Shown here in pieces: positions 12,086-34,787 of a DNA stretch of 64,000 bases (positions within the stretch are counted from its first letter, which is position 1; the number at the start of each line of letters is the position of its first letter). The position numbers and the translations under genes are program-made. The DNA is taken from assembly GCA_035697325.1 (NCBI GenBank), contig DASSDB010000004.1, positions 186,001-250,000 on the forward strand, in the 5' to 3' direction. Below the pieces are notes generated by a model. The model was not told where the DNA came from and ran no database searches. It saw nothing but the letters and a program-made list of their open reading frames with translations. The stretch is from Candidatus Saccharimonadales bacterium. GTDB lineage: Bacteria > Patescibacteriota > Saccharimonadia > Saccharimonadales > Saccharimonadaceae.

Positions 12086-13635
12086 AGCAAACCCCTCCAC
12101 AGCTGGTAAAAAACTACTGGCCTCGCTACCGCAGGCAGGCTATTGCTATCACCATTTTGATGCAAATTGCCGCAACACTCGCTATTGGATGCGCACTTCT
12201 GGCAACCGGCGCTACGCAACCGACGGTTCCTTTTTGGATCATGCTACTTGCCGTTATTTTTACATCAATCGGCGTTAATATTCTTCTTGTTAATCAGCTG
12301 CTCACGCCTTTGAAGGACCTTACGAGCGCACTCACGCATATCTCGGGCGAGCCCAGCACCATTACACCACCAAATCCAAACGCAAGCCACTTTGAGCGAG
12401 ACGGTTTTAAACCATTGCTTCAGCTTATTTACGAGCTGGCCGCCGACAAAAAGACCGAAACCGAACAGAAAGAAAGCCAAGCTGAAACGGCTTCAAAAGA
12501 GCAATCGGTCTCAGAAATTGCTACAGCATTCGAGAATACCGCCGCCGGATTTATTATCATGAAAGCATCTGGCGACATTCTGTATGCCAATAAGAATGCG
12601 CCCGTCCATACTGATCACGAAAATACAAAAAAGATTGATCTTATATTCGACGATTCGCCCAGCCTTACCGAATGGCTGAAGGATTGTGAAGAGCATGCCG
12701 TTCATGCCGAGCAAACATGGGAACGAGTTCCTAGCCAAATCATTGGGGAAGAAGACCGCAAAATCTATGATCTTGTCGCTTCATATGATAAAGGAAGTTC
12801 AGCAGAAGTTGTCATTACGCTTTTTGATCGCACAGCTGACTATCAGCCCGAAGATGATAGCCTTGATTTTATTGCTTTTGCAGCCCACGAATTGCGCGGG
12901 CCAATTACTGTTATTCGGGGCTACCTTGACGTGCTTGAAGATGAGCTCACTGATAAGATTGACGCTGAGCAGGGAGAACTTTTCAAAAGGCTTGTCGTTT
13001 CGGCCAATCGTCTTAGCAGTTATGTTAATAATATTCTTAATGCTTCGCGCTACGACCGGCGCCACCTTAAAGTGCACTTGCGCGAAAATAACCTATCCGA
13101 TATTTATGACACGATCAGCGACGACATGAATCTTCGCGCATCGTCGCAAAACAGACTTTTGGCCGTGCACTTTCCCAAAGATCTCCCCACGATCGCTGCC
13201 GATAAAGCAAGTATTAGCGAAGTTATTTCTAATCTTATCGACAATGCTGTCAAGTACAGCAATGAAGGGGGAGCGGTAAATGTGACCGCCGTGGTGGACG
13301 GCGACTTTGTGAAAGTATCTGTAGAAGACCACGGTATCGGCATGCCCGGAAGCGTCATTAGTAATTTGTTTCACAAATTTTACCGCTCGCATCGTTCCCG
13401 CGAAACGGTCGCGGGTACAGGCATCGGCCTATATATATGTAAAGCGATCGTTGAATCACATGGTGGTAAAATAGAGGTACGAAGCACCGAAGGCGAGGGG
13501 TCGGTATTTGAATTTACTATACCGATATACAGTACCGTTGCAGATAAACTCACCGCCAATAACAACAGCAACGAGGGATTGATTGAACATAGCGAAAGCG
13601 GGTGGATAAAAAACCACGCGATGTACAGGGGATAA
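12076..13635 (+). CDS. Membrane sensor histidine kinase (PAS, HisKA, HATPase)
   Basis: The 519-aa protein has two N-terminal membrane helices (about 17-40 and 48-70), a HAMP-like linker, a PAS-like segment near 150-240, a HisKA domain with the phosphoacceptor H271 in AAHELRGP, and a HATPase_c domain with NLIDNAVKYS (N box), EDHGIGMP (G1) and GTGIGLYICK (G2). It would autophosphorylate and pass phosphate to the adjacent single-domain receiver. There is almost no extracytoplasmic loop, so it probably senses a membrane or cytoplasmic signal. It overlaps the DUF3048 gene and is followed two bases later by the regulator. Confidence 0.92.
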   Translation: MAVKQTPPQLVKNYWPRYRRQAIAITILMQIAATLAIGCALLATGATQPTVPFWIMLLAVIFTSIGVNILLVNQLLTPLKDLTSALTHISGEPSTITPPNPNASHFERDGFKPLLQLIYELAADKKTETEQKESQAETASKEQSVSEIATAFENTAAGFIIMKASGDILYANKNAPVHTDHENTKKIDLIFDDSPSLTEWLKDCEEHAVHAEQTWERVPSQIIGEEDRKIYDLVASYDKGSSAEVVITLFDRTADYQPEDDSLDFIAFAAHELRGPITVIRGYLDVLEDELTDKIDAEQGELFKRLVVSANRLSSYVNNILNASRYDRRHLKVHLRENNLSDIYDTISDDMNLRASSQNRLLAVHFPKDLPTIAADKASISEVISNLIDNAVKYSNEGGAVNVTAVVDGDFVKVSVEDHGIGMPGSVISNLFHKFYRSHRSRETVAGTGIGLYICKAIVESHGGKIEVRSTEGEGSVFEFTIPIYSTVADKLTANNNSNEGLIEHSESGWIKNHAMYRG

Positions 13636-13637
13636 AA

Positions 13638-14033
13638 ATGGCTATAAAGACAATATTATGCATTGAAGACGACCGTTTTATCGGAGAGATGTATGTCCGT
13701 AGCCTTAAAAAAGCCGGTTACGACGTTGATTGGATGGTTGACGGCAACGATGGCCTGGTAGCTGCCCGTAATAAAACATATGATCTTATTCTGCTTGATA
13801 TCATGCTCCCCGAACGACGTGGTGGCGAAATTTTGGCCGCTTTGCGAGGCGAAAAAGGCGATCTTATTCCTAAAACAAAGGTAATCGTTATGACCAACTT
13901 TGAGCAAGACGATGAGTCACGTCAGGCTATGCAACATAATGTTGACGCATATCTTATAAAGGCAGAGATTACCCCAAAGAAGCTCTTGGGCGTTATTGAA
14001 AAACTCGCAACAGCACCCTCTCAAGTAGCATAG
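13638..14033 (+). CDS. Single-domain response regulator (CheY-like receiver)
   Basis: From the ATG at 13638 this is a 131-aa receiver with the acidic pair D11/D12, phosphoacceptor D54 in LLDIMLP, T86 and K108. No output domain follows, so it must act by protein contact or by phosphorelay. I chose this start because the longer open frame overlaps the kinase gene without receiver sequence. It sits directly behind the cognate kinase. Confidence 0.9.
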   Translation: MAIKTILCIEDDRFIGEMYVRSLKKAGYDVDWMVDGNDGLVAARNKTYDLILLDIMLPERRGGEILAALRGEKGDLIPKTKVIVMTNFEQDDESRQAMQHNVDAYLIKAEITPKKLLGVIEKLATAPSQVA

Positions 14034-15910: not shown

Positions 15911-16891
15911 CTACACGGTGAAGTTGTGCAGCACAGCCGGCCCGGTCGCGAGCCTGACACCCGAGCCGGAGAGCACCCTGAGCTGCGAGAAACTGAAGGT
16001 GCTCTTACGCGCCTTGATCTCTCGAGCGAACCGCTTCATGACACCGAGGAATACGTCGTCGTAGTTGAGCGGCGAGGCCATGCCTCGGCCCAACTCCAAC
16101 GTTTCGTGATCGTAGAACGTCGTTCGGCCGGAAAGCGTGAAGACAGTTTCGGTACCACCCTCGAAACGAAGAGTGATCGTCTCGGGGAAGTGATTCGTCT
16201 CCAGCTTGCGGCTGCCCGAGCAGAAGAAGGTCACTCCATCGTGCAGCGTACCGGCCACCGCGTAGCGGTCGGGACTGTTGGCCAGCCGGATCGCCGTGAA
16301 CGGCTGCCATCCGAGCAGCTTCATCAGGTAGCCGATCTCGTGACCCCAGTGATCGAGGAGAAGGCTACGCCCCTCCTTCTTCCAGGGGTTTTCCGTGGCG
16401 TGATACGTGAAGTCGAGCCCCACGTGCTCCAGTGCGCCATACTTGCGCTGGAGGTTGCCGAGATTGGCACACGCCCATCCGTAGGGCGCGTTTTCGAGCT
16501 CGTTGCGCGGATGGCACGTCGTCACCAGCACCTTGTTGGTTTCAGCCTCCACGAGCGCACGCTCCACGACCACCAGCCCATCCTGCGTGGTGGCCAGCGG
16601 CTTCTCGCAGAAAACAGGCTTACGCGCACGAACGACTCGAGCAAGCTGAGCCGGATGCGCCTCGTCGATCGACGCAATCACGATCGCGTCGATGTCCGGG
16701 TCGCGAAGGAGGTCTTCCTCTCGGCCGTAGCCCGGAACGTTCTGACCCACCTTCTGCCTGAACGTCGCGATACTCCTTTCCGAAGGATCGAACAGCCCGG
16801 CCAGCGAAAACTCACCGGTCTGGAGAGCAGGAATGGCGTGTGAGCGCCAGGCATGGTTACCAGTACCCAGGAAACCCAAGCGGATTACCAC
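15911..16891 (-). CDS. Gfo/Idh/MocA-family NAD(P)-dependent oxidoreductase
   Basis: The start is GTG 16891, three bases after GGAGGAAATT-type sequence, giving 326 residues. The N-terminal Rossmann motif is GFLGTGNHA, and the conserved EKP motif is in FCEKPLA. A histidine-containing GHEIGYLMKLLG helix lies in the expected active-site region of the C-terminal domain. Family members oxidise or reduce sugars, inositols or biliverdin; the substrate cannot be assigned. Codons are strongly G/C-ending compared with neighbours, and a sugar dehydrogenase standing alone is odd in a reduced genome, so acquisition, perhaps from an actinobacterial host, is a reasonable guess. Confidence 0.82.
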   Translation of the reverse strand: MVIRLGFLGTGNHAWRSHAIPALQTGEFSLAGLFDPSERSIATFRQKVGQNVPGYGREEDLLRDPDIDAIVIASIDEAHPAQLARVVRARKPVFCEKPLATTQDGLVVVERALVEAETNKVLVTTCHPRNELENAPYGWACANLGNLQRKYGALEHVGLDFTYHATENPWKKEGRSLLLDHWGHEIGYLMKLLGWQPFTAIRLANSPDRYAVAGTLHDGVTFFCSGSRKLETNHFPETITLRFEGGTETVFTLSGRTTFYDHETLELGRGMASPLNYDDVFLGVMKRFAREIKARKSTFSFSQLRVLSGSGVRLATGPAVLHNFTV

Positions 16892-17030
16892 AATTTCCTC
16901 CGTTGATCGGTCCAAACTGTACCCCTAAACCATACCATTTTAAATTAATTTCAGCAAACCATTTCACCCTTAAGTAGGTGCTGTGTGTCATGTGATAAAA
17001 TTAGTGAGTTGTCAACGGAGAGGAATCCTG

Positions 17031-23578: not shown

Positions 23579-24265
23579 ATGTCCGAGGTCACACGCACCC
23601 CCGACTCCTTTCGGCACGATTCCGAAGTGCCACCATCTTCCATGCCCGATAGCCGTACTCTTGGCAGGGAAGCCCTTCGGGAAGTTAACTCCTCACTCAA
23701 GCGAGAGTTCGAAACATTTATTGCTCCTCATGTTTCCCTTATCTTAGGAATCGCGCGTAAATCACTGAGCGACCCGCAGGATGCCGAAGACATCCTTCAG
23801 GAAGTGCTCATAAAGACATGGCATGTTTTCGAAAAAGGAAATCGGCCCAAGAAAGGTTGGTTTGCCACCGTTACCCGTACGACAATTATTGACAGTTACC
23901 GTAGAGAATCCCTGCGGCGCCCTAATACAGAAGCCGTTGATTACACCTCTTACGAAAATCAGGCTCTCCACCCCTCATATTCGTTCGAAGACACAATCAG
24001 ACAGGAGATGCTTGCGGGTGACGATGCATTTATGCAATTTCTCGTTGATATCCTTAGAACACAGCATATATCCGGCGAGGAGCTACTTGAGCTGGTTATT
24101 GAAATAGCAAACGGCTCCAAAGTAAGCGAGTACGCCGCGGCACACAATATGCCGGGCGGACAGGCTCGCCGCCATCTCTATATCGCGCGTAATCAGGCAA
24201 GAAAGTACGAAGCCCTCATACAAGCTTATCTTGCGGGTGAAGACATTTCCTCCAAAACATTATAA
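23579..24265 (+). CDS. ECF-type RNA polymerase sigma factor
   Basis: The 228-aa protein has a clear sigma region 2 at about 40-115, with DAEDILQEVLIKTW and KKGWFATVTRTTIIDSYRRESLRR. The C-terminal part (about 150-215) is helical and ends in an HTH-like YAAAHNMPGGQARRHLYIARNQAR, a divergent region 4. No anti-sigma gene is next to it. The next gene, 35 bp downstream with its own -10 overlapping this stop, encodes a protein made only of repeated LuxR-type HTH modules. The pairing of a sigma factor with a poly-HTH protein suggests an accessory regulatory unit. Confidence 0.8.
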   Translation: MSEVTRTPDSFRHDSEVPPSSMPDSRTLGREALREVNSSLKREFETFIAPHVSLILGIARKSLSDPQDAEDILQEVLIKTWHVFEKGNRPKKGWFATVTRTTIIDSYRRESLRRPNTEAVDYTSYENQALHPSYSFEDTIRQEMLAGDDAFMQFLVDILRTQHISGEELLELVIEIANGSKVSEYAAAHNMPGGQARRHLYIARNQARKYEALIQAYLAGEDISSKTL

Positions 24266-24300
24266 AATATGAACACACTGTCAGCAGAAGGGAAGTGCGC

Positions 24301-25146
24301 GTGCAACCCCCGACTCGAGAACTCGAAATCTTGTTGGCAGTCGCAAAAGGAGACAGCCACGAAGAAATTGCCAGAAATTTTGGCATATCCGAAATGAGTG
24401 TCAAAGCTAGCCTGGTCAAGACCAGGGAACGATACGGAGCAGTAAACAACGAAGAAGCTATCGGCTTTGCGCTTGCCGCTCGTCACATTCCTCTTCGTAA
24501 AGGGCAGAATCCCGGCACTCCTCTCAACCAAGCAGAAGTCGACTTTCTTAGCCTCGTAGCTGGCGGAAACCAAGATGAGGACTTGGAGAAGATTTACTTC
24601 TGTTCGCGGAAGCTTATCGATAATTACATGAAAGTAATCATCGGAAAACTGGATGCCGTCAACCGGTGCAATGCCATTTATAAAGGGTTTCGCTACGGAC
24701 TGTTGATTGAGAGGGGTGAGCGGTACTACGCAAAGCATCTTCGCAACTCCCAGGCAGATGCATTGCTTGCTTCCGCCGTTACTGCCAGTCTAGAAGAGGC
24801 GGCGGCGATACTTTGCCTTAAGCCGTCAACAGTAAAAACGCACCTGCAACACTGCCGGCGGCGACTTATTGCCAATACGACGCCCCATGCGGTGGCTATT
24901 GCGATTCACAACGGAGAATTGTTTTGTCCGCCCGCTGACGAGAATTCGGCAAAAACGCTTGAGTGGAGGGAACGCCAGGCGCTCATAAACATTGCCCAAG
25001 GATATAGTGATCCGGACTCCGCAGCGATGCTCAAAATTGGCGTTCGTACGCTGACTCGAGCAGTTGCTTCGGCTATCGAAAAGCTAGAAGCAACAGGTCG
25101 AGAGAACGCTGTCTTCAAGCTGTTTCAACAGGGAGTTCTTAAGTGA
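24301..25146 (+). CDS. Protein of four tandem LuxR/GerE-type helix-turn-helix modules
   Basis: I chose GTG 24301, seven bases after AAGGGA; the GTG at 24295 is too close. The 281-aa protein appears to consist of four modules of about 60 residues at roughly 3-63, 75-136, 149-208 and 221-280. Each follows the LuxR plan: a T/N-x-x-E helix, G/x-S/x-x-E-x-A helix, a recognition helix with K-T-H-L-type residues (clearest in module 3, STVKTHLQHCRRRLI), and an A-V-A-x-A-x-x-x-G-x-L end helix. Module 2 is the most divergent. No receiver, sensor or enzymatic domain is present. It could bind an array of sites or act as a scaffold on DNA. It follows an ECF sigma gene. Confidence 0.72.
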   Translation: MQPPTRELEILLAVAKGDSHEEIARNFGISEMSVKASLVKTRERYGAVNNEEAIGFALAARHIPLRKGQNPGTPLNQAEVDFLSLVAGGNQDEDLEKIYFCSRKLIDNYMKVIIGKLDAVNRCNAIYKGFRYGLLIERGERYYAKHLRNSQADALLASAVTASLEEAAAILCLKPSTVKTHLQHCRRRLIANTTPHAVAIAIHNGELFCPPADENSAKTLEWRERQALINIAQGYSDPDSAAMLKIGVRTLTRAVASAIEKLEATGRENAVFKLFQQGVLK

Positions 25147-26041: not shown

Positions 26042-26611
26042 TTATGACGAGAAAGTAAACGTAAAAGCCAGCCCTGGGTGAGCAGCCCTTGCCTGCACAT
26101 GCCAGGTTTGGCCTTCGGCAACCTCCTGTGGCGAGTGGTTCGTCGGCGCCGCGATGATTCGCGTCACCATCGGGTAACGCTGGTGACCGTTGCGCAGTTC
26201 GCGTGCCGTCAGCGTGTCCTTGAGGCTCGTCAACACCCGCGGAGGGGCATCGAAGAGCTCTTCGAACACGGCTACTCGGCACGCCAAGAAACTCAGTTCG
26301 GGACTGTACTGAAGGACAGCCTTTTCCGCGCCGCCCTGTCGATTCAGGGCGTCGAGGTCGAGGCCACCGTAGAGCTCCTCCGGAGAGGTACCCTGGCCAA
26401 ACGACTTGACGTACGGAGTCACGTCCCTGATGGCACCAAAGGCGGCCTCCAAGAACTCCGACTTTCCGTGACCGCCAGGGCCACTGAAAATCAGATTGAC
26501 ACCTGCGGCTATTGCGAGCGAAAACGCCTTGCGCATTTCATCTGCGTAGACGAAGTGACCCGTAGCACTCTCGACCCAGGGAAGGATGAGGGTGTGGGAA
26601 AGAGTGTCCAT
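26042..26611 (-). CDS. Truncated MoxR/RavA-like AAA+ ATPase
   Basis: The 189-aa protein has a Walker A (GPGGHGKSEF, about 44-53), a Walker B-like VAVFEELFDAPP near 115, and a sensor-1 region TRIIAAPTNHSP, in the spacing of MoxR-family AAA+ proteins. It stops about 25 residues after sensor 1. The arginine finger, sensor 2 and helical lid of a full MoxR protein (usually over 300 aa) are missing, and no continuation is recognisable downstream. It has its own promoter, a 5' hairpin and a GGAG site, so it may be expressed as a short ATP-binding protein, or it may be a decayed gene. Confidence 0.72.
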   Translation of the reverse strand: MDTLSHTLILPWVESATGHFVYADEMRKAFSLAIAAGVNLIFSGPGGHGKSEFLEAAFGAIRDVTPYVKSFGQGTSPEELYGGLDLDALNRQGGAEKAVLQYSPELSFLACRVAVFEELFDAPPRVLTSLKDTLTARELRNGHQRYPMVTRIIAAPTNHSPQEVAEGQTWHVQARAAHPGLAFTFTFSS

Positions 26612-26853: not shown

Positions 26854-28119
26854 TTACTTCGAATCGGCCGCCTTCACCAGCGTGAAGGTCGTGGCGTACA
26901 ACCTGCCCGACACCAGCGGATATCCGCTGCCACGGCGGAACAGCACGACGTCACCCGCGTGGGGGAACTTCCTGCTCCCGCCGGGCAGATCGTAGGTGAT
27001 CTGGCGCCGGTCCTTGATGTACTTGCACTGGCCGGCCCTCACGTAGAGCTGGGTACGCCCCTGGTACTTCTCGGTCTTGAGCGTTCCCGTCAGCCAGCCT
27101 TCGTCCCGGAGGGCGGAGAGCAGCCGGCGCTCGATCTCCTGCGACAAGCGCAGGTTGTCGCTGTCCGGCTCCTGGGTCAGCCACCACTTGTAGGTGGTGA
27201 CGCTGTTGGTCCTCAGCACGTCGCCGAGTTCCTTCAGCAGGGCGAAGCCGCCGTTGGCCGCATCCATCTCGAGCGCCATCTGGATCACCCACGTCCCGGA
27301 GGGCGTGAACCGGCGAGCCAAGTCGAGCTGCACGCAGAGCGGCAGCTTGGCCATCACATCGAGCGACACCAGATCGAAGCTCTGGAGGTTCGTCGCGGCG
27401 AGCTCGAGCAAGGCATCCACCTTGCTGTCACCCAACCGCAACCTCAGCTTCTCCGAGGTGGTGAACCACTCGTTGGAGCCTCTCCCGCTGAACAGCATGT
27501 TCGGCGCCGTCTTGGCGACGATCTGCATCGCGGTGAGCAACTGCTCGTCGTCGAGGATCCCCCAGTAGCTGTCGGGCTCCTCGAACACGCCGTGGCCGTT
27601 GGTCAGCTGGCGCACACGGCCCGACCCGTTCCCCACGAAGGCGTGCTTCGTGAAGTTGATGACGTTGTAGCGATACTCCACCTTGGTCTGGCGGAGCTTC
27701 TCGAAGATCATCTCGGCGAGGTCGTCCTTGCTGATACCCACCTTCAAGGCGTGCACCAGCCAGTAGTCGTACGCGGCGCCAGCCGCGAGGAACACCTCGC
27801 GGACAAACGGCACGCGCTGCTCGTCGCCCAGGGCGAGGAGCAGCCACTCGTTGTTGAGCAGGTCTTCTCCGACGTGGAAGTTGTCGAGGTGACGCCGGTA
27901 GAATTCCTCCACCGACGACCCGGCCGCTTCCAGCAACTCCAAGAACAACTGCGTGTGCTCGGAGATCCACCGCACGCCCTGCGAGTAGGGGATGCCCTCG
28001 TACCCGTCGGGGTGGGTGGATTCCACAGCCGTGTCCAGCAGCTCCAGGCTGACGGTACCCTCGCGGGTCGCCTCGGCCAGCTGGCCCTGGATCACGGTGT
28101 AGTCGATGGTCGCGGTCAT
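26854..28119 (-). CDS. Large orphan protein (421 aa)
   Basis: I chose ATG 28119, six bases after GGAG, rather than the ATG at 28131. The protein is mainly helical in the first 300 residues, with leucine-rich pairs and a repeated D-L-L/A-L-x-L pattern that could be an alpha solenoid. The C-terminal ~90 residues are beta-rich and basic (TGTLKTEKYQGRTQLYVRAGQ, CKYIKDRRQITYDL, HAGDVVLFRRGSGYPL), like a small nucleic-acid-binding barrel. No VWA MIDAS motif is seen, so it is not a standard MoxR partner. Third codon positions are very G/C-rich. Upstream are a consensus promoter and two leader hairpins. Function unknown. Confidence 0.62.
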   Translation of the reverse strand: MTATIDYTVIQGQLAEATREGTVSLELLDTAVESTHPDGYEGIPYSQGVRWISEHTQLFLELLEAAGSSVEEFYRRHLDNFHVGEDLLNNEWLLLALGDEQRVPFVREVFLAAGAAYDYWLVHALKVGISKDDLAEMIFEKLRQTKVEYRYNVINFTKHAFVGNGSGRVRQLTNGHGVFEEPDSYWGILDDEQLLTAMQIVAKTAPNMLFSGRGSNEWFTTSEKLRLRLGDSKVDALLELAATNLQSFDLVSLDVMAKLPLCVQLDLARRFTPSGTWVIQMALEMDAANGGFALLKELGDVLRTNSVTTYKWWLTQEPDSDNLRLSQEIERRLLSALRDEGWLTGTLKTEKYQGRTQLYVRAGQCKYIKDRRQITYDLPGGSRKFPHAGDVVLFRRGSGYPLVSGRLYATTFTLVKAADSK

Positions 28120-28141
28120 AGCAATCTCCATTCTTCTCAGG

Positions 28142-28734: not shown

Positions 28735-29319
28735 TTACTTTTTCGTTGCTCGCATAAACATTTGCCAGATTGAATCCGCATACTTTTTTGAATTGATGGC
28801 CGGATTTTCCAAAAGATAAAAAGACGACCCATCAATAACAAAGCGGAGTGATACCGCCATTGTTCTTGCATCAAACTCGCCAAACTCACCCCCGTTCTGC
28901 CCCCTTAAAAAGAGCAATTCCAATAGATCAACCGCATTGCCACTATAGTCGACCGCGGGCGTATTCAATATAACCTGGTGCACGGCCGCAATCTGATCGG
29001 CATGCTGGGCAAGATACTCAATATTAGAAGTTATGTACGCTTTTAACTTGTCGGTCATCGTTTGTGCGGCATCAATACGCGGCTTCATATAGGCTGCACC
29101 TTCCATATAAGCCGTCTCGACAATGGCACCAATCAGCTCATCCTTTGTTGCAAAATGATACATAATTGTTCCTTTGCTCACGTGGGCTTCCTTGGCAATG
29201 GACATAATTGACGTGGCTGCGTAACCGTCCCGGTTAATAATTTTCGTCGCAGCAGTAATAATATCTTGCCGACGCACTTGCTGAATCCGAGTCGTCTGAG
29301 CTTCTTTTTTTGAACGCAT
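28735..29319 (-). CDS. TetR-family transcriptional repressor
   Basis: The 194-aa protein has a typical TetR N-terminal HTH (IITAATKIINRDGYAATSIMSIAKEAHVSKGTIMYHFATKDELIGAIV) and an all-helical ligand-binding region with a tryptophan-containing last helix. These repressors usually control adjacent genes and their own promoter. TATAAAAT lies just upstream of the start. The downstream four-helix membrane protein is the obvious target, suggesting a small-molecule or drug response. Confidence 0.88.
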   Translation of the reverse strand: MRSKKEAQTTRIQQVRRQDIITAATKIINRDGYAATSIMSIAKEAHVSKGTIMYHFATKDELIGAIVETAYMEGAAYMKPRIDAAQTMTDKLKAYITSNIEYLAQHADQIAAVHQVILNTPAVDYSGNAVDLLELLFLRGQNGGEFGEFDARTMAVSLRFVIDGSSFYLLENPAINSKKYADSIWQMFMRATKK

Positions 29320-29412
29320 GGTTAAATTTTATACCAATCGTTCAACATTTGCAATGAGTTGTCATGTTCATAAATCTACACAAAATTACTGTTTATGAAG
29401 CCATATCCTTGC

Positions 29413-29442
29413 TATAATCGGGCAAGTTGGTTCCAAAACCCG
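29413..29442 (+). promoter_or_regulatory. -10 box and 5' hairpin of the poly-excisionase gene
   Basis: TATAAT is at 29413-29418. A CGGG/CCCG stem (29419-29422 with 29439-29442) with an inner TTGG/CCAA lies at the expected transcript start, followed by GAAGGAAG and the GTG start. Confidence 0.5.
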
Positions 29443-29455
29443 AGAAGGAAGAATA

Positions 29456-30565
29456 GTGGAGCTCGTAACTTCAACCAGACTTGCCGATAAGCTGCGAATC
29501 ACCGCAGACACGCTCGCCCAATGGCGAAGAGTCGGTTTTTTAGCACCCGCAGAAACCATCAACAATACAAATCACTACAAAATCACAAATGTAGACGAAA
29601 TATTGCAACGAGGAGCGACAAATCTTAACCATAAGATATCCGCCAAGGATGTCTTATGGGGCAAGGTGGTGCTCTTACCCATAGGTGATGCCGCAGAGAA
29701 GCTAGGCACAAGCACTAATGCGCTTCGTCATCGCATCGAACGAGGGAGGTTTGGGGCCATCAAGCTCCTGTCGGAATGGCGTGTCCTCGAAGCAGATGTC
29801 GACCGGTTTCTCATGCAAGCTAACAATCCAGATTACATATCACGAGAAGAAGTGGCACATATTTTTGGATCGCGCCTTGATTACGTCAAGGAGCGCATCC
29901 AGAGCGGGGAGTTGCGGTGCGTTACGATTCCTGGCAAGCCGATCAGGAGGCCAGTCACCCTAGAAAGCATTCTCGCTTTACTCCAAAAACTCATCCCAAA
30001 GTGGGTAGACGCCAAAGAGTGGATCGCAGAGCGCAAAAAAGACGAGCGTCCCTTAATAGGGCTACGAGAATTCGAGCGTTTTCTTGGACTTAGTGCCAAC
30101 ACAGGGCAGAACGTGTTAAAAGATGGGCGGATCGCTTACCTCCAAACAGAAGGAGGTTTGATAAAGATTTCCCCCGTGTCAGCGAACCGCCTGCTTGATC
30201 GGCAAACTCCACTCAACGTAGGGCAGGTAGCCGCGATCTTCGGGGTAGACGAGGATACCGCCGCGAAAGCTTGGCAATCCGGAGATCTTGAATGCACTTT
30301 GCATCATCATAGCGACAAAAAACTCCGACAAGCGTGTGTCGTAGAAATGCTAAGGGATTGTCTCAGTCCGGGAGTCACCCAGCGAATAAAATGGTGTGAG
30401 CAACGCTTGCGTGACCCCAGCCCGCTCTTGTCTGTAGCTGAAGCAGCGGCCTTTTTCGACGTTTCGGAAAAGCAAGTTACACATTTCCTTCAAAGCGGTA
30501 AGCTGCGAGGAGTTAAGCTACCCGGCAGAACCACCGAGTGGCATATCGCGAAGGATATGCGCTAG
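29456..30565 (+). CDS. Protein of six tandem excisionase/MerR-like helix-turn-helix modules
   Basis: The start is GTG 29456, four bases after GAAGGAAG. The 369-aa protein appears to be built from six HTH_17/excisionase-type units at about 4-51, 74-120, 127-176, 199-248, 252-300 and 323-369. Each has a x-x-A-A/V-x-x-F/L-G/x-V/x-S/D-x-x-x-V/A helix pair, a short basic G-K/R-L/F-x-G/x turn, and a wing with K/R-x-W/x-x-I/V. The clearest are LSVAEAAAFFDVSEKQV (module 6) and LNVGQVAAIFGVDEDTA (module 5). No other domain is present. Single-module relatives are excisionases or small regulators; a chain of six is very unusual. It is a stand-alone unit with its own promoter and terminator. Confidence 0.72.
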   Translation: MELVTSTRLADKLRITADTLAQWRRVGFLAPAETINNTNHYKITNVDEILQRGATNLNHKISAKDVLWGKVVLLPIGDAAEKLGTSTNALRHRIERGRFGAIKLLSEWRVLEADVDRFLMQANNPDYISREEVAHIFGSRLDYVKERIQSGELRCVTIPGKPIRRPVTLESILALLQKLIPKWVDAKEWIAERKKDERPLIGLREFERFLGLSANTGQNVLKDGRIAYLQTEGGLIKISPVSANRLLDRQTPLNVGQVAAIFGVDEDTAAKAWQSGDLECTLHHHSDKKLRQACVVEMLRDCLSPGVTQRIKWCEQRLRDPSPLLSVAEAAAFFDVSEKQVTHFLQSGKLRGVKLPGRTTEWHIAKDMR

Positions 30566-30572
30566 CTCTTAA

Positions 30573-30616
30573 ACCTCCATGCGAGCTTCTCGTGCTCGCA
30601 TGGAGGTACTCTTTTT
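30573..30616 (+). terminator. Intrinsic terminator of the poly-excisionase gene
   Basis: A perfect 13-bp stem (30573-30585 with 30595-30607) is followed by ACTCTTTTT. Confidence 0.8.
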
Positions 30617-30776: not shown

Positions 30777-31268
30777 TCACCCCTCGGGCGTGAGGGGGAC
30801 GGCGTGGGGATTGAGCTGTCGCCAGGCGAAGCTACCGCGCAGCTCCGCGTCGGCCGTGAGGTAGAGGATGGCGAACATCGCTGTCACCAGTTCGGTCAGG
30901 CCAAGCGCGTTCACGATGTTGCGAAGCACGAGCATGGGCACGCGCGCGCCATCGTTCTTCGTGACAGTCAGCGGCTTCATGATCCCGAACGCGTAGTAGA
31001 ACGCGAACGGCTTCGACAACCCGGTGTTCGTGTCGACCCCGTTGCTGAGGGTTGCAAGCATGTCTTGCACGCGAGTTTGCCGCGCCTCAGGGGTGCTACC
31101 CTCGGATACCCTTCTGGCAGTAGCCATCTTGACATCATCACTACGCACTGCGGCGATTTCAGCCTCTCCTTCGGCCAGGCGCATACGCGCTTGGTGAAGC
31201 AGTTCATCCAGTTGTTCCTGCGGAGTGTCCAGCGGAATGCTGAACCACTCCTCCGCGGTCATGGTCAT
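30777..31268 (-). CDS. Orphan helical protein (163 aa)
   Basis: The ATG at 31268 follows TAGGAG. The first third is a charged helix (QEQLDELLHQARMRLAEGEAEIAAV), and the rest is moderately hydrophobic and may form a compact helical bundle (VLRNIVNALGLTELVTAMFAILYL). No family is recognised. Its codons are G/C-rich, and it has a full consensus promoter and a strong terminator. Confidence 0.6.
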   Translation of the reverse strand: MTMTAEEWFSIPLDTPQEQLDELLHQARMRLAEGEAEIAAVRSDDVKMATARRVSEGSTPEARQTRVQDMLATLSNGVDTNTGLSKPFAFYYAFGIMKPLTVTKNDGARVPMLVLRNIVNALGLTELVTAMFAILYLTADAELRGSFAWRQLNPHAVPLTPEG

Positions 31269-33091: not shown

Positions 33092-33919
33092 CTAAGTACT
33101 TCGTTCACGACGCAATAAATCCATCTTTGTTTCAAAGATAAGTTTGGCATACTCATTTAAGATTACTCGAATACCTCGGGAGGTCGTCGTCCATCCCTCT
33201 CTAGTAAAATCGTACGACATAGAGTCAGAGGCAACTGGTACTGTTTTGATAGCCCAAGGTGTAAATTTATACCAATCCATCTCGCAACGACGCAGTGCAA
33301 ACGGTGATGCAACTATAATTAATTTAGCAGGCTTAAAATCAATGTCCTCAAACAAATCAAGAGTACGCTTCACGTTATCTGGTATGGTTATAGCTTTCGG
33401 CTCTAGCAGCAATGCTGATTCTGGAACTCCTTCGTCTAAAGCTACCTTGGCCATTCGCTCAGCTTCATTTTGCGTATGGCTTGCGTAAAAAGGTCCGTGA
33501 CCGCTTATAACAATCTTATCGGAAAATCCAGCTTTGTATAATTCAATAGCTTTTCGTATTCTTAAATCGTTTGGAGATCCAAAAACAAATATTGCGTCGG
33601 CATTTTCCGGCTCTTTATTTATAACAAGCTTGTCGTAGACGGCTGCGTAAAGAGGGTCTGTTTTATTGAACATGCTCGCCTCAAGCTTATCAAAGCATGC
33701 GAGCAAACGTGCGTCTAGCTCGACGAGATCTATTTGTTCGTACACACTCAACCAATCACATTCCGCCCCATATTTACGACACAATTGCTTAAAGGGTATA
33801 AAGATATCTTGATGAAGTTTCAGATAATCGTAATAAACAGCAAGTCTTTGGGATTCTTTTGCAAGAATCTCCCATAACTCACTGGCGGAGGGTAGCTCAG
33901 CATTACTTGTCCTTGGCAT
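33092..33919 (-). CDS. DUF218/YdcF-like protein
   Basis: The 275-aa protein has a helical N-terminal ~100 residues and a DUF218 Rossmann-like domain: DAIFVFGSPNDLRIRKAIELY, KIVISGHGPFYA, ALLLEPKAITIPDNVKRT and KLIIVASPFALRR. Relatives include ElyC, SanA and YdcF, involved in envelope maintenance or of unknown function. The N-terminal helical part resembles the YdcF subgroup. TATAGT lies just upstream of the start, suggesting a leaderless message. Confidence 0.82.
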   Translation of the reverse strand: MPRTSNAELPSASELWEILAKESQRLAVYYDYLKLHQDIFIPFKQLCRKYGAECDWLSVYEQIDLVELDARLLACFDKLEASMFNKTDPLYAAVYDKLVINKEPENADAIFVFGSPNDLRIRKAIELYKAGFSDKIVISGHGPFYASHTQNEAERMAKVALDEGVPESALLLEPKAITIPDNVKRTLDLFEDIDFKPAKLIIVASPFALRRCEMDWYKFTPWAIKTVPVASDSMSYDFTREGWTTTSRGIRVILNEYAKLIFETKMDLLRRERST

Positions 33920-34048
33920 GATGACTTCTACTATATATAAACCTAACGGGAGTATAACACCAATTTAACAGATATAAAAAGCCAAACAAAAAAGTTCCAG
34001 CGAATATTTTCCGAAACTTCTTACCTCTGTTGAAATTGAATAATGTCA

Positions 34049-34123
34049 TGGTGACCTCACGGGGAATCGAACCCCGATTGCAAGGATGAGAACCTTGTGT
34101 CCTAACCGTTAGACGATGAGGCC
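34049..34123 (-). tRNA. tRNA-Glu (anticodon CTC)
   Basis: On the minus strand the acceptor GGCCTCA pairs with TGAGGTC (one G-U). The anticodon stem CAAGG/CCTTG encloses loop TTCTCAT with anticodon CTC, and the T arm has GGTTCGATTCC. The discriminator A and an encoded CCA end at 34049. Confidence 0.95.
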
Positions 34124-34298
34124 ATTTACTTCGATAACTATACCAAACGATACTCATTTTGTACAGAGGTGACACATGCACTAAGGGCGGAGAAACTCTT
34201 CCAGGGGCCACCTCTTGCATCACCTTACGATATGCGGTACGATGGCGCATGCGCGGATGAGGTGGTACGACCAGAATATCAACGAGAAGGGAATCTGA

Positions 34299-34787
34299 AT
34301 GCCTGCTAAAAAGCCCATCGATACCCCTGCACAGATCGCGACACTCACCGCTTTCGAACTGGATGTTCTCCAAGACAAAGCCTGCGGCCTCACTGATGCC
34401 GCAGTCGGCGATAAGCGAAACCATGCAAGTATCTCTACTGCCAAAAGCTGGCTACGTGATATCTTCGAAAAGCTTGGCTACTACCAGGATGATGATGTGG
34501 CTAAGGATATCGAAAACCCCGCCGCTCGAGCCGTCTGCGCGGTCCTCCGGGCAAAAAAGATCGCTGGACCCCCGGGAATGAAGGGTAAAGTTCAGGGCCT
34601 CAGCAGGGAGGAGCAAAGTGTCCTTGATTTCGTTTCACTCGGCTATTCCACGCCGCAAATCGCCAGCTACCTGTATTCCGGTGAAGAGACTGTTAAGGCA
34701 CGGATTCAGAGCGCCGGCAAAAAATTGGGCGTGAAGTCTCGCGTCCAGATAGCAGCCGCCGCAATCGCTCATGGCTTAATCGAGTAG
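34299..34787 (+). CDS. Protein of two tandem LuxR-type helix-turn-helix modules
   Basis: The ATG at 34299 follows AGAAGGGA. The 162-aa protein has two LuxR/GerE-like modules at about 15-90 and 100-161. The second is canonical (LSREEQSVLDFVSLGYSTPQIASYLYSGEETVKARIQSAGKKLGV...AHGLIE); the first has an insertion in the middle. No sensory or receiver domain is present. It resembles half of the four-module protein at 24301, with the same unit style: TTGCAT and TACGAT 17 bp apart upstream, and a terminator downstream. Confidence 0.75.
   Translation: MPAKKPIDTPAQIATLTAFELDVLQDKACGLTDAAVGDKRNHASISTAKSWLRDIFEKLGYYQDDDVAKDIENPAARAVCAVLRAKKIAGPPGMKGKVQGLSREEQSVLDFVSLGYSTPQIASYLYSGEETVKARIQSAGKKLGVKSRVQIAAAAIAHGLIE

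Follow-up and report, generated by a model that had tools for sequence, protein, structure and literature searches.

BldC of Streptomyces is a protein of 68 aa with a MerR-like (HTH_17) winged-helix fold (PDB 6AMA and 6AMK), many subunits of which occupy 9-bp direct repeats in head-to-tail order, bending the DNA and building filaments (PMC5859096). BldC needs Arg30 and His46; Arg30 is a major-groove arginine, and its replacement in R30A abolishes binding (PMC5859096). Phage Xis (Pukovnik Xis, 4J2N; lambda Xis) and the ICE factor RdfS (8DGL) have the same fold and are filament-forming architectural DNA binders, with a single module and with an integrase as partner. The filaments formed by RdfS, Xis and Cox are comparable to those of BldC, some with indirect readout (PMC11963761). 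Regulators of the MerR family, CvkR and RacA included, also carry a winged-helix domain; the classical members, which are symmetric dimers, have a coiled coil and in most cases an effector domain. Serial DNA-binding repeats in one chain are known from Myb repeats and TALE proteins, which resemble in design the protein described here and differ from it in folds and origin.

That protein, P0001, is encoded in the window (the whole 64-kb stretch of DNA that was analysed), part of a 1.03-Mb CPR genome. That the genome is one of the CPR (Patescibacteria) follows from another genome of its phylum (G759), in which a protein stretch is identical to a Ca. Daviesbacteria record. P0001 has the fold in common with BldC, Xis, RdfS and MerR; its best PDB sequence match was to the BldC-DNA complexes, and BldC was also among the top fold matches of its single modules. 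BldC is a single module whose assembly takes place on DNA, whereas P0001 carries six non-identical modules within one polypeptide and lacks the equivalents of both Arg30 and His46. Unlike Xis and RdfS, it lies in a zone in which no integrase was found. Its first module (M1) matched MerR_1, and the protein has neither the coiled coil nor the effector domain of the classical MerR members. We infer the function of P0001 from these relatives, and DNA binding, head-to-tail order, bending, regulatory role and targets are all discussed below by analogy with them.

Gene and Transcription Unit

The reading frame was exactly that of the first-pass annotation in start, stop and length (Table 1). The same annotation had described a stand-alone, G/C-richer unit with a 5' hairpin and an intrinsic terminator. 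The terminator was borne out, and because the upstream TetR gene (28735-29319) is divergently oriented, P0001 forms a single-gene unit. The 5' hairpin was discarded, its stability being the same as that of shuffled sequence (z 0.11). The difference in G+C content was in the right direction but small (51.1% vs. 48.6% for the 64-kb window). A GC3 of 0.52 did not set P0001 apart, and codon usage separated neither P0001 from backbone genes nor true from false reading frames.

The -10 element was missed by a consensus scan because its -35 is poor. No direct-repeat operator was found in the promoter region of P0001. An 8-bp inverted repeat upstream of the gene (29367-29399), of a kind shown by about 9% of such regions by chance, could be a candidate operator.

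Table 1. Coordinates of P0001, its signals and modules, and of neighbouring features in the window. The last column gives the domain found by the hidden Markov model (HMM) built from relatives.
Feature	Position	Strand	Basis	Domain by relatives' HMM
Putative promoter: -10 element TATAAT, TGC before it	29413..29418	+	Read in sequence	
Shine-Dalgarno-like GAGAAGGAAGA, just 5' of the P0001 GTG	29442..29452	+	Read in sequence	
P0001 ORF: GTG start, TAG stop, 369 aa, six HTH_17-type winged-helix modules	29456..30565	+		
Module 1 (residues 2-51), nearest MerR_1	29459..29608	+	Alone: MerR_1 E 4.5e-4	Residues 2-51, 12.3 bits
Linker 1-2 (residues 52-72), within the first two-module unit	29609..29671	+	Module spacing	
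Module 2 (residues 73-120), most canonical HTH_17	29672..29815	+	Alone: HTH_17 E 7.4e-7, 29.8 bits	Residues 73-119, 23.2 bits
Module 3 (residues 126-179)	29831..29992	+	Similarity to M5/M6, z 6.2/7.4; AF2 winged helix	Residues 126-165, 8.5 bits
Linker 3-4 (residues 180-198)	29993..30049	+	AF2 predicted helix at residues 186-195	
Module 4 (residues 199-247), weakest by sequence	30050..30196	+	Similarity to M6, z 5.6; AF2 winged helix	Residues 208-237, 5.9 bits (weakest of six)
Module 5 (residues 250-302)	30203..30361	+	Similarity to M3 and M6	Residues 253-280, 11.6 bits
Linker 5-6 (residues 303-321)	30362..30418	+	Spacing; in register with linker 3-4	
Module 6 (residues 322-368), stops short of the usual last helix	30419..30559	+	Alone: HTH_17 E 1.5e-5	Residues 324-359, 24.1 bits
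Intrinsic terminator: 14-bp stem (30573-30607), then T-run	30573..30615	+	Fold z -6.57	
P0002, 283 aa, four GerE/LuxR-type HTH modules	24295..25146	+	Pfam GerE 75.7 bits, 4 stretches	
tRNA-Glu(ctc), marker of the hypervariable insertion zone	34049..34123	-	Synteny with relatives	
P0003, 162 aa, two GerE-type modules, the first degenerate	34299..34787	+	GerE 45.7 bits	

Six Modules in One Chain

Pfam HTH_17 (PF12728) matched P0001 in six stretches (81.5 bits; curated cut-off 27 bits), and TIGR01764 'excise' matched it in four (51.6 bits; cut-off 28.8 bits). No effector or other non-HTH domain was found by Pfam or NCBIfam, and the entire chain consisted of modules and of linkers of about 20 aa. 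When the chain was scanned with Pfam in single pieces, M1, M2 and M6 matched HTH families, M4 (0.16) and M5 (0.076) were marginal, and M3 had no match. Because several modules were weak or absent in that scan, an HMM was trained on 74 HTH domains taken from relatives, most of them members of the same phylum. With this model exactly six domains were found in P0001 (93.5 bits in total). A domain scoring at least as high as M4 appeared in just 3 of 3000 shuffles of P0001, and 99.9% had none. The turn glycine and the hydrophobic core were retained in all six modules. The first-pass description of P0001 as six excisionase-type modules and no other domain was thus upheld for the chain as a whole; matching each segment separately to a profile succeeded for three of them only.

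Compared with each other, modules M2 to M6 were interlinked (M3-M5, M3-M6, M2-M6, M4-M6 and M5-M6; z 5.6-7.4). The spacing of the six modules was not even.

Two-Module Units and Predicted Structure

The autocorrelation of P0001 had its maximum at a shift of 124 residues, and module starts were about 70 and about 53 residues apart by turns; P0001 is therefore made of three two-module units, and the longer linker is the one within a unit. Unit 2 aligned with unit 3 nearly end to end, linkers included (z 11.8). Judged from sequence, this points to an origin of P0001 by duplication of a two-module ancestor, and the retention of the fold in units that have diverged far argues for selection on the fold.

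AlphaFold2 (AF2) predicted M3+M4, the two weakest modules, as two winged helices and a linker helix (pLDDT 86.4, pTM 0.78). The input alignment held the other two units of P0001 and two natural two-module proteins; being small and made of supposed homologues, it lets the model support the fold without being independent proof of it. For M1, M2, M5 and M6 the winged-helix assignment comes from sequence. The whole protein, predicted from its single sequence, gave an uninformative model (pLDDT 40). Structure prediction thus returned repeated winged helices, not one globule, for the modelled second unit (M3+M4).

Single-module PDB matches of the M3+M4 model in Foldseek were Pukovnik Xis (4J2N) and BldC (6AMA and 6AMK), with probability 1.00 and TM-scores up to 0.84 by target length, followed by the MerR-like domain of RacA and by RdfS. 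No PDB match below 0.001 covered the whole two-module query. The top viral match, from Rhodococcus phage ChewyVIII, was an HTH protein of 126 aa to which the full query aligned; since this protein spans both modules, module pairs probably occur in phages.

Residues at the DNA-Contact Positions of BldC

P0001 was basic overall (+10, pI 9.4). At the position of BldC Arg30, modules M1 to M6 had Q, H, E, N, K and H, respectively, and at the position of His46 they had T, a gap, P, L, D and T. Arg47 of BldC was retained solely in M3, with K in M5. The match of P0001 to the BldC subfamily model NF033787 (33.6 bits) did not reach the cut-off of 77. Arginine occupied the Arg30 position in just 39 of the 74 HTH domains of relatives, and its loss in P0001 is therefore compatible with binding. 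The net charge of the modules was +1 to +2, except for M5 (-3), against a mean of +4.2 in relatives. Wings were basic in M3 (KPIRR), M5 (HHHSDKK) and M6 (PGR) and non-basic in M1 and M4, and the core of M5 was acidic.

The loss of BldC-type contact residues from most modules and their low charge, together with the wings of M1 and M4, the core of M5 and the weak HTH_17 matches of M1, M3, M4 and M5 taken singly, would suit a protein whose modules are mostly degenerate HTHs serving as a protein-protein scaffold or as spacers. Only M2, and perhaps M6, would then sit on DNA, and P0001 would be a single-site regulator or an adaptor. The basic character of the whole protein and of the wings of M3, M5 and M6 speaks against such a role, as does the intact fold predicted for even the weakest modules (M3 and M4); RdfS, a relative, likewise binds without clear base specificity (PMC11963761). 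A scaffold is, on this evidence, rather unlikely. By analogy with its relatives P0001 likely binds DNA, although its modules may individually have weak or changed DNA specificity.

Occurrence in Other Genomes

No full-length homologue of P0001 was found in the congener and other relatives (101 genomes), among 393 genomes of the order or 394 of the family, in the genome-contig collection, or in viral contigs, the last queried both with the protein and with the two-module alignment. In plasmids and phages (tblastn, E up to 10) there was no full-length homologue either, only weak partial matches. Weak matches in genomes of the order were rejected, those read being single-HTH or unrelated proteins (DNA methylases, a helicase and a DUF4209 protein among them). 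A match on a Mycobacterium plasmid was also left aside; it adjoins an AbiEii-type gene and is probably an AbiEi-like protein.

Among 115 ORFs with HTH_17 from viral and genome contigs, 113 had one module and two had two. The HTH_17 proteins read among 150 relatives likewise had one module and two at most, either in small proteins or at the front of larger ones, which included DNA methylases and a helicase. The first-pass view that such domains normally occur once per protein, alone or as a part of a larger one, agrees with these counts. A profile of the two-module unit, run over 362 genomes of the phylum, spanned both modules in just two giant proteins. Two HTH_17 modules were present in a giant protein of Ca. 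Daviesbacteria (L113/L075) and in a viral protein (L158); L113 and L158 had comparable spacing and aligned in register with a unit of P0001. Unlike P0001, these natural pairs stop at two modules, and the pair of Ca. Daviesbacteria is fused to a giant protein. A literature search returned no paper describing an HTH_17 array longer than pairs; such arrays may nevertheless be listed elsewhere. In P0001 a known domain appears in a new arrangement, and its gene is an orphan within a variable zone.

One or two N-terminal MerR-type HTHs were found in CPR proteins L075/L113 (G759, Ca. Daviesbacteria), L078 (G809), L079 (G793), L077 and L051, several of which are giant. In L075, L077, L078 and L079 the HTH was followed by a hydrophobic, apparently transmembrane stretch and then by long repetitive regions, which in L078 were collagen-like GPTGATG repeats; to judge from their sequences, these four apparently tie DNA-binding domains to cell-surface proteins. 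Separately, four C5-cytosine DNA methylases of relatives had an N-terminal MerR/HTH_17 domain.

The division into three semi-independent units with linkers, and the presence of the RacA MerR-like domain among the fold matches, raise the alternative that P0001 organises or bridges the chromosome, each two-module unit holding a separate DNA segment, as a nucleoid-associated protein or a RacA-like anchor. A general organiser should be conserved, yet P0001 was absent from the congener and from about 390 genomes of the family. It sits in variable cargo, and no domain beyond the HTH modules, anchoring or otherwise, turned up in it. Such a role is improbable.

Genomic Context

The hypervariable zone extends from 14030 to 36780 and is flanked by two conserved two-component gene pairs. 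In two relatives (G009 and G015) tRNA-Glu(ctc) lies within about 130 bp after the response-regulator gene; here about 20 kb, P0001 included, separate the response regulator (13602-14033) from the tRNA gene. The cargo around this tRNA-Glu differs among relatives G009, G015 and G023. A predicted ORF on the minus strand (33903-34424) runs across the tRNA-Glu gene, and some or all of it is probably spurious.

Lineage-specific genes beside a tRNA gene, and a domain family named after excisionases (TIGR01764; PHROG excisionases), would fit a P0001 that is a true excisionase, a recombination directionality factor or a transposition accessory protein of an element at tRNA-Glu. However, none of the zone's genes that were scanned with Pfam encoded an integrase, and a search of 13.9-36.9 kb gave no att-like direct repeat, for which reasons a role in excision is unlikely. 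The recombinases found in the genome, one tyrosine and one large serine recombinase, are both on another contig, and the tyrosine recombinase, being single, is presumably Xer-like. Known Xis proteins, moreover, have one module, against the six domains and 369 aa of P0001. Overall, we consider an excisionase very improbable.

The only HTH_17 matches in the genome were those of P0001, and the only GerE matches above the cut-off were those of P0002 and P0003, in a genome-wide count of HTH_17 and GerE matches. P0003 is a paralogue of P0002 (BLASTP 5e-6), and no full-length relative of either was found among 120 related genomes. Three all-HTH proteins of two HTH types thus lie in one variable zone, P0002 and P0003 flanking P0001 at distances of up to about 5 kb. 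An ECF-like gene (23579-24265, plus strand), matching Pfam Sigma70_r2 only, ends 30 bp before P0002; from this arrangement the pair may consist of a sigma factor and, as a separate protein, its expanded DNA-reading subunit.

Four genes on the minus strand (15911-16915, 26042-26611, 26854-28131 and 30777-31268) had a GC3 of 0.68-0.92, compared with about 0.47 in the backbone. The high-GC3 genes of the cargo zone include a short ORF for a MoxR ATPase. By composition they are likely recent imports from high-G+C bacteria.

Discussion

The six-module observation is real, and P0001 is more ordered than the first-pass annotation stated, with three two-module units in place of six equal repeats. The best explanation is that P0001 is a covalently pre-assembled, BldC/Xis-like (HTH_17) DNA-binding array, to which we give about an even chance of being right. 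This reading is favoured because the nearest structural relatives (BldC, Xis and RdfS) bind DNA head-to-tail. P0001 would be a one-chain version of the winged-helix filaments that these proteins build from separate subunits. Its non-identical modules, joined within each unit by a linker that is helical where modelled, would be arrayed next to one another on a single long site, of about 54 bp if each module takes 9 bp as in BldC. Each module would add a weak, partly sequence-independent contact, all of them would jointly bend the DNA, and P0001 would have an architectural role in the regulation of a promoter or locus. The fold, the charge of the whole protein, the basic wings of M3, M5 and M6 and the canonical M2 count for this reading; the replacement of Arg30 in all modules and of Arg47 in most, together with the low module charges, counts against it, and no target site was found. 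The functions proposed in the first pass (a long multi-part DNA site, bridging of distant sites, chromosome organisation) would also suit the head-to-tail binding of these relatives.

A wider reading joins two proposals, namely that P0001 is a one-chain filament that reads or wraps a single composite site of about 50-60 bp, and that HTH-only stacks are a general design of this genome. The second proposal is made because the stacks of four and of two GerE modules flank P0001 within about 5 kb. Taken jointly, the two are put forward tentatively, as a possibility that we doubt somewhat.

BldC, Xis, RdfS and Cox assemble from separate subunits, and the number of bound modules therefore varies with the DNA. 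If the array reading is true, P0001 would turn the geometry of the filament into a fixed-length reader with six set, non-identical modules, and bacteria would have in it their own natural equivalent of DNA-binding repeats in series. Work on how many winged helices cooperative bending needs would also gain a tractable construct. With three all-HTH proteins of two HTH superfamilies together in a single cargo zone of this 1-Mb genome of the CPR, one may ask whether HTH stacking is a regulatory strategy of reduced bacteria of this kind.
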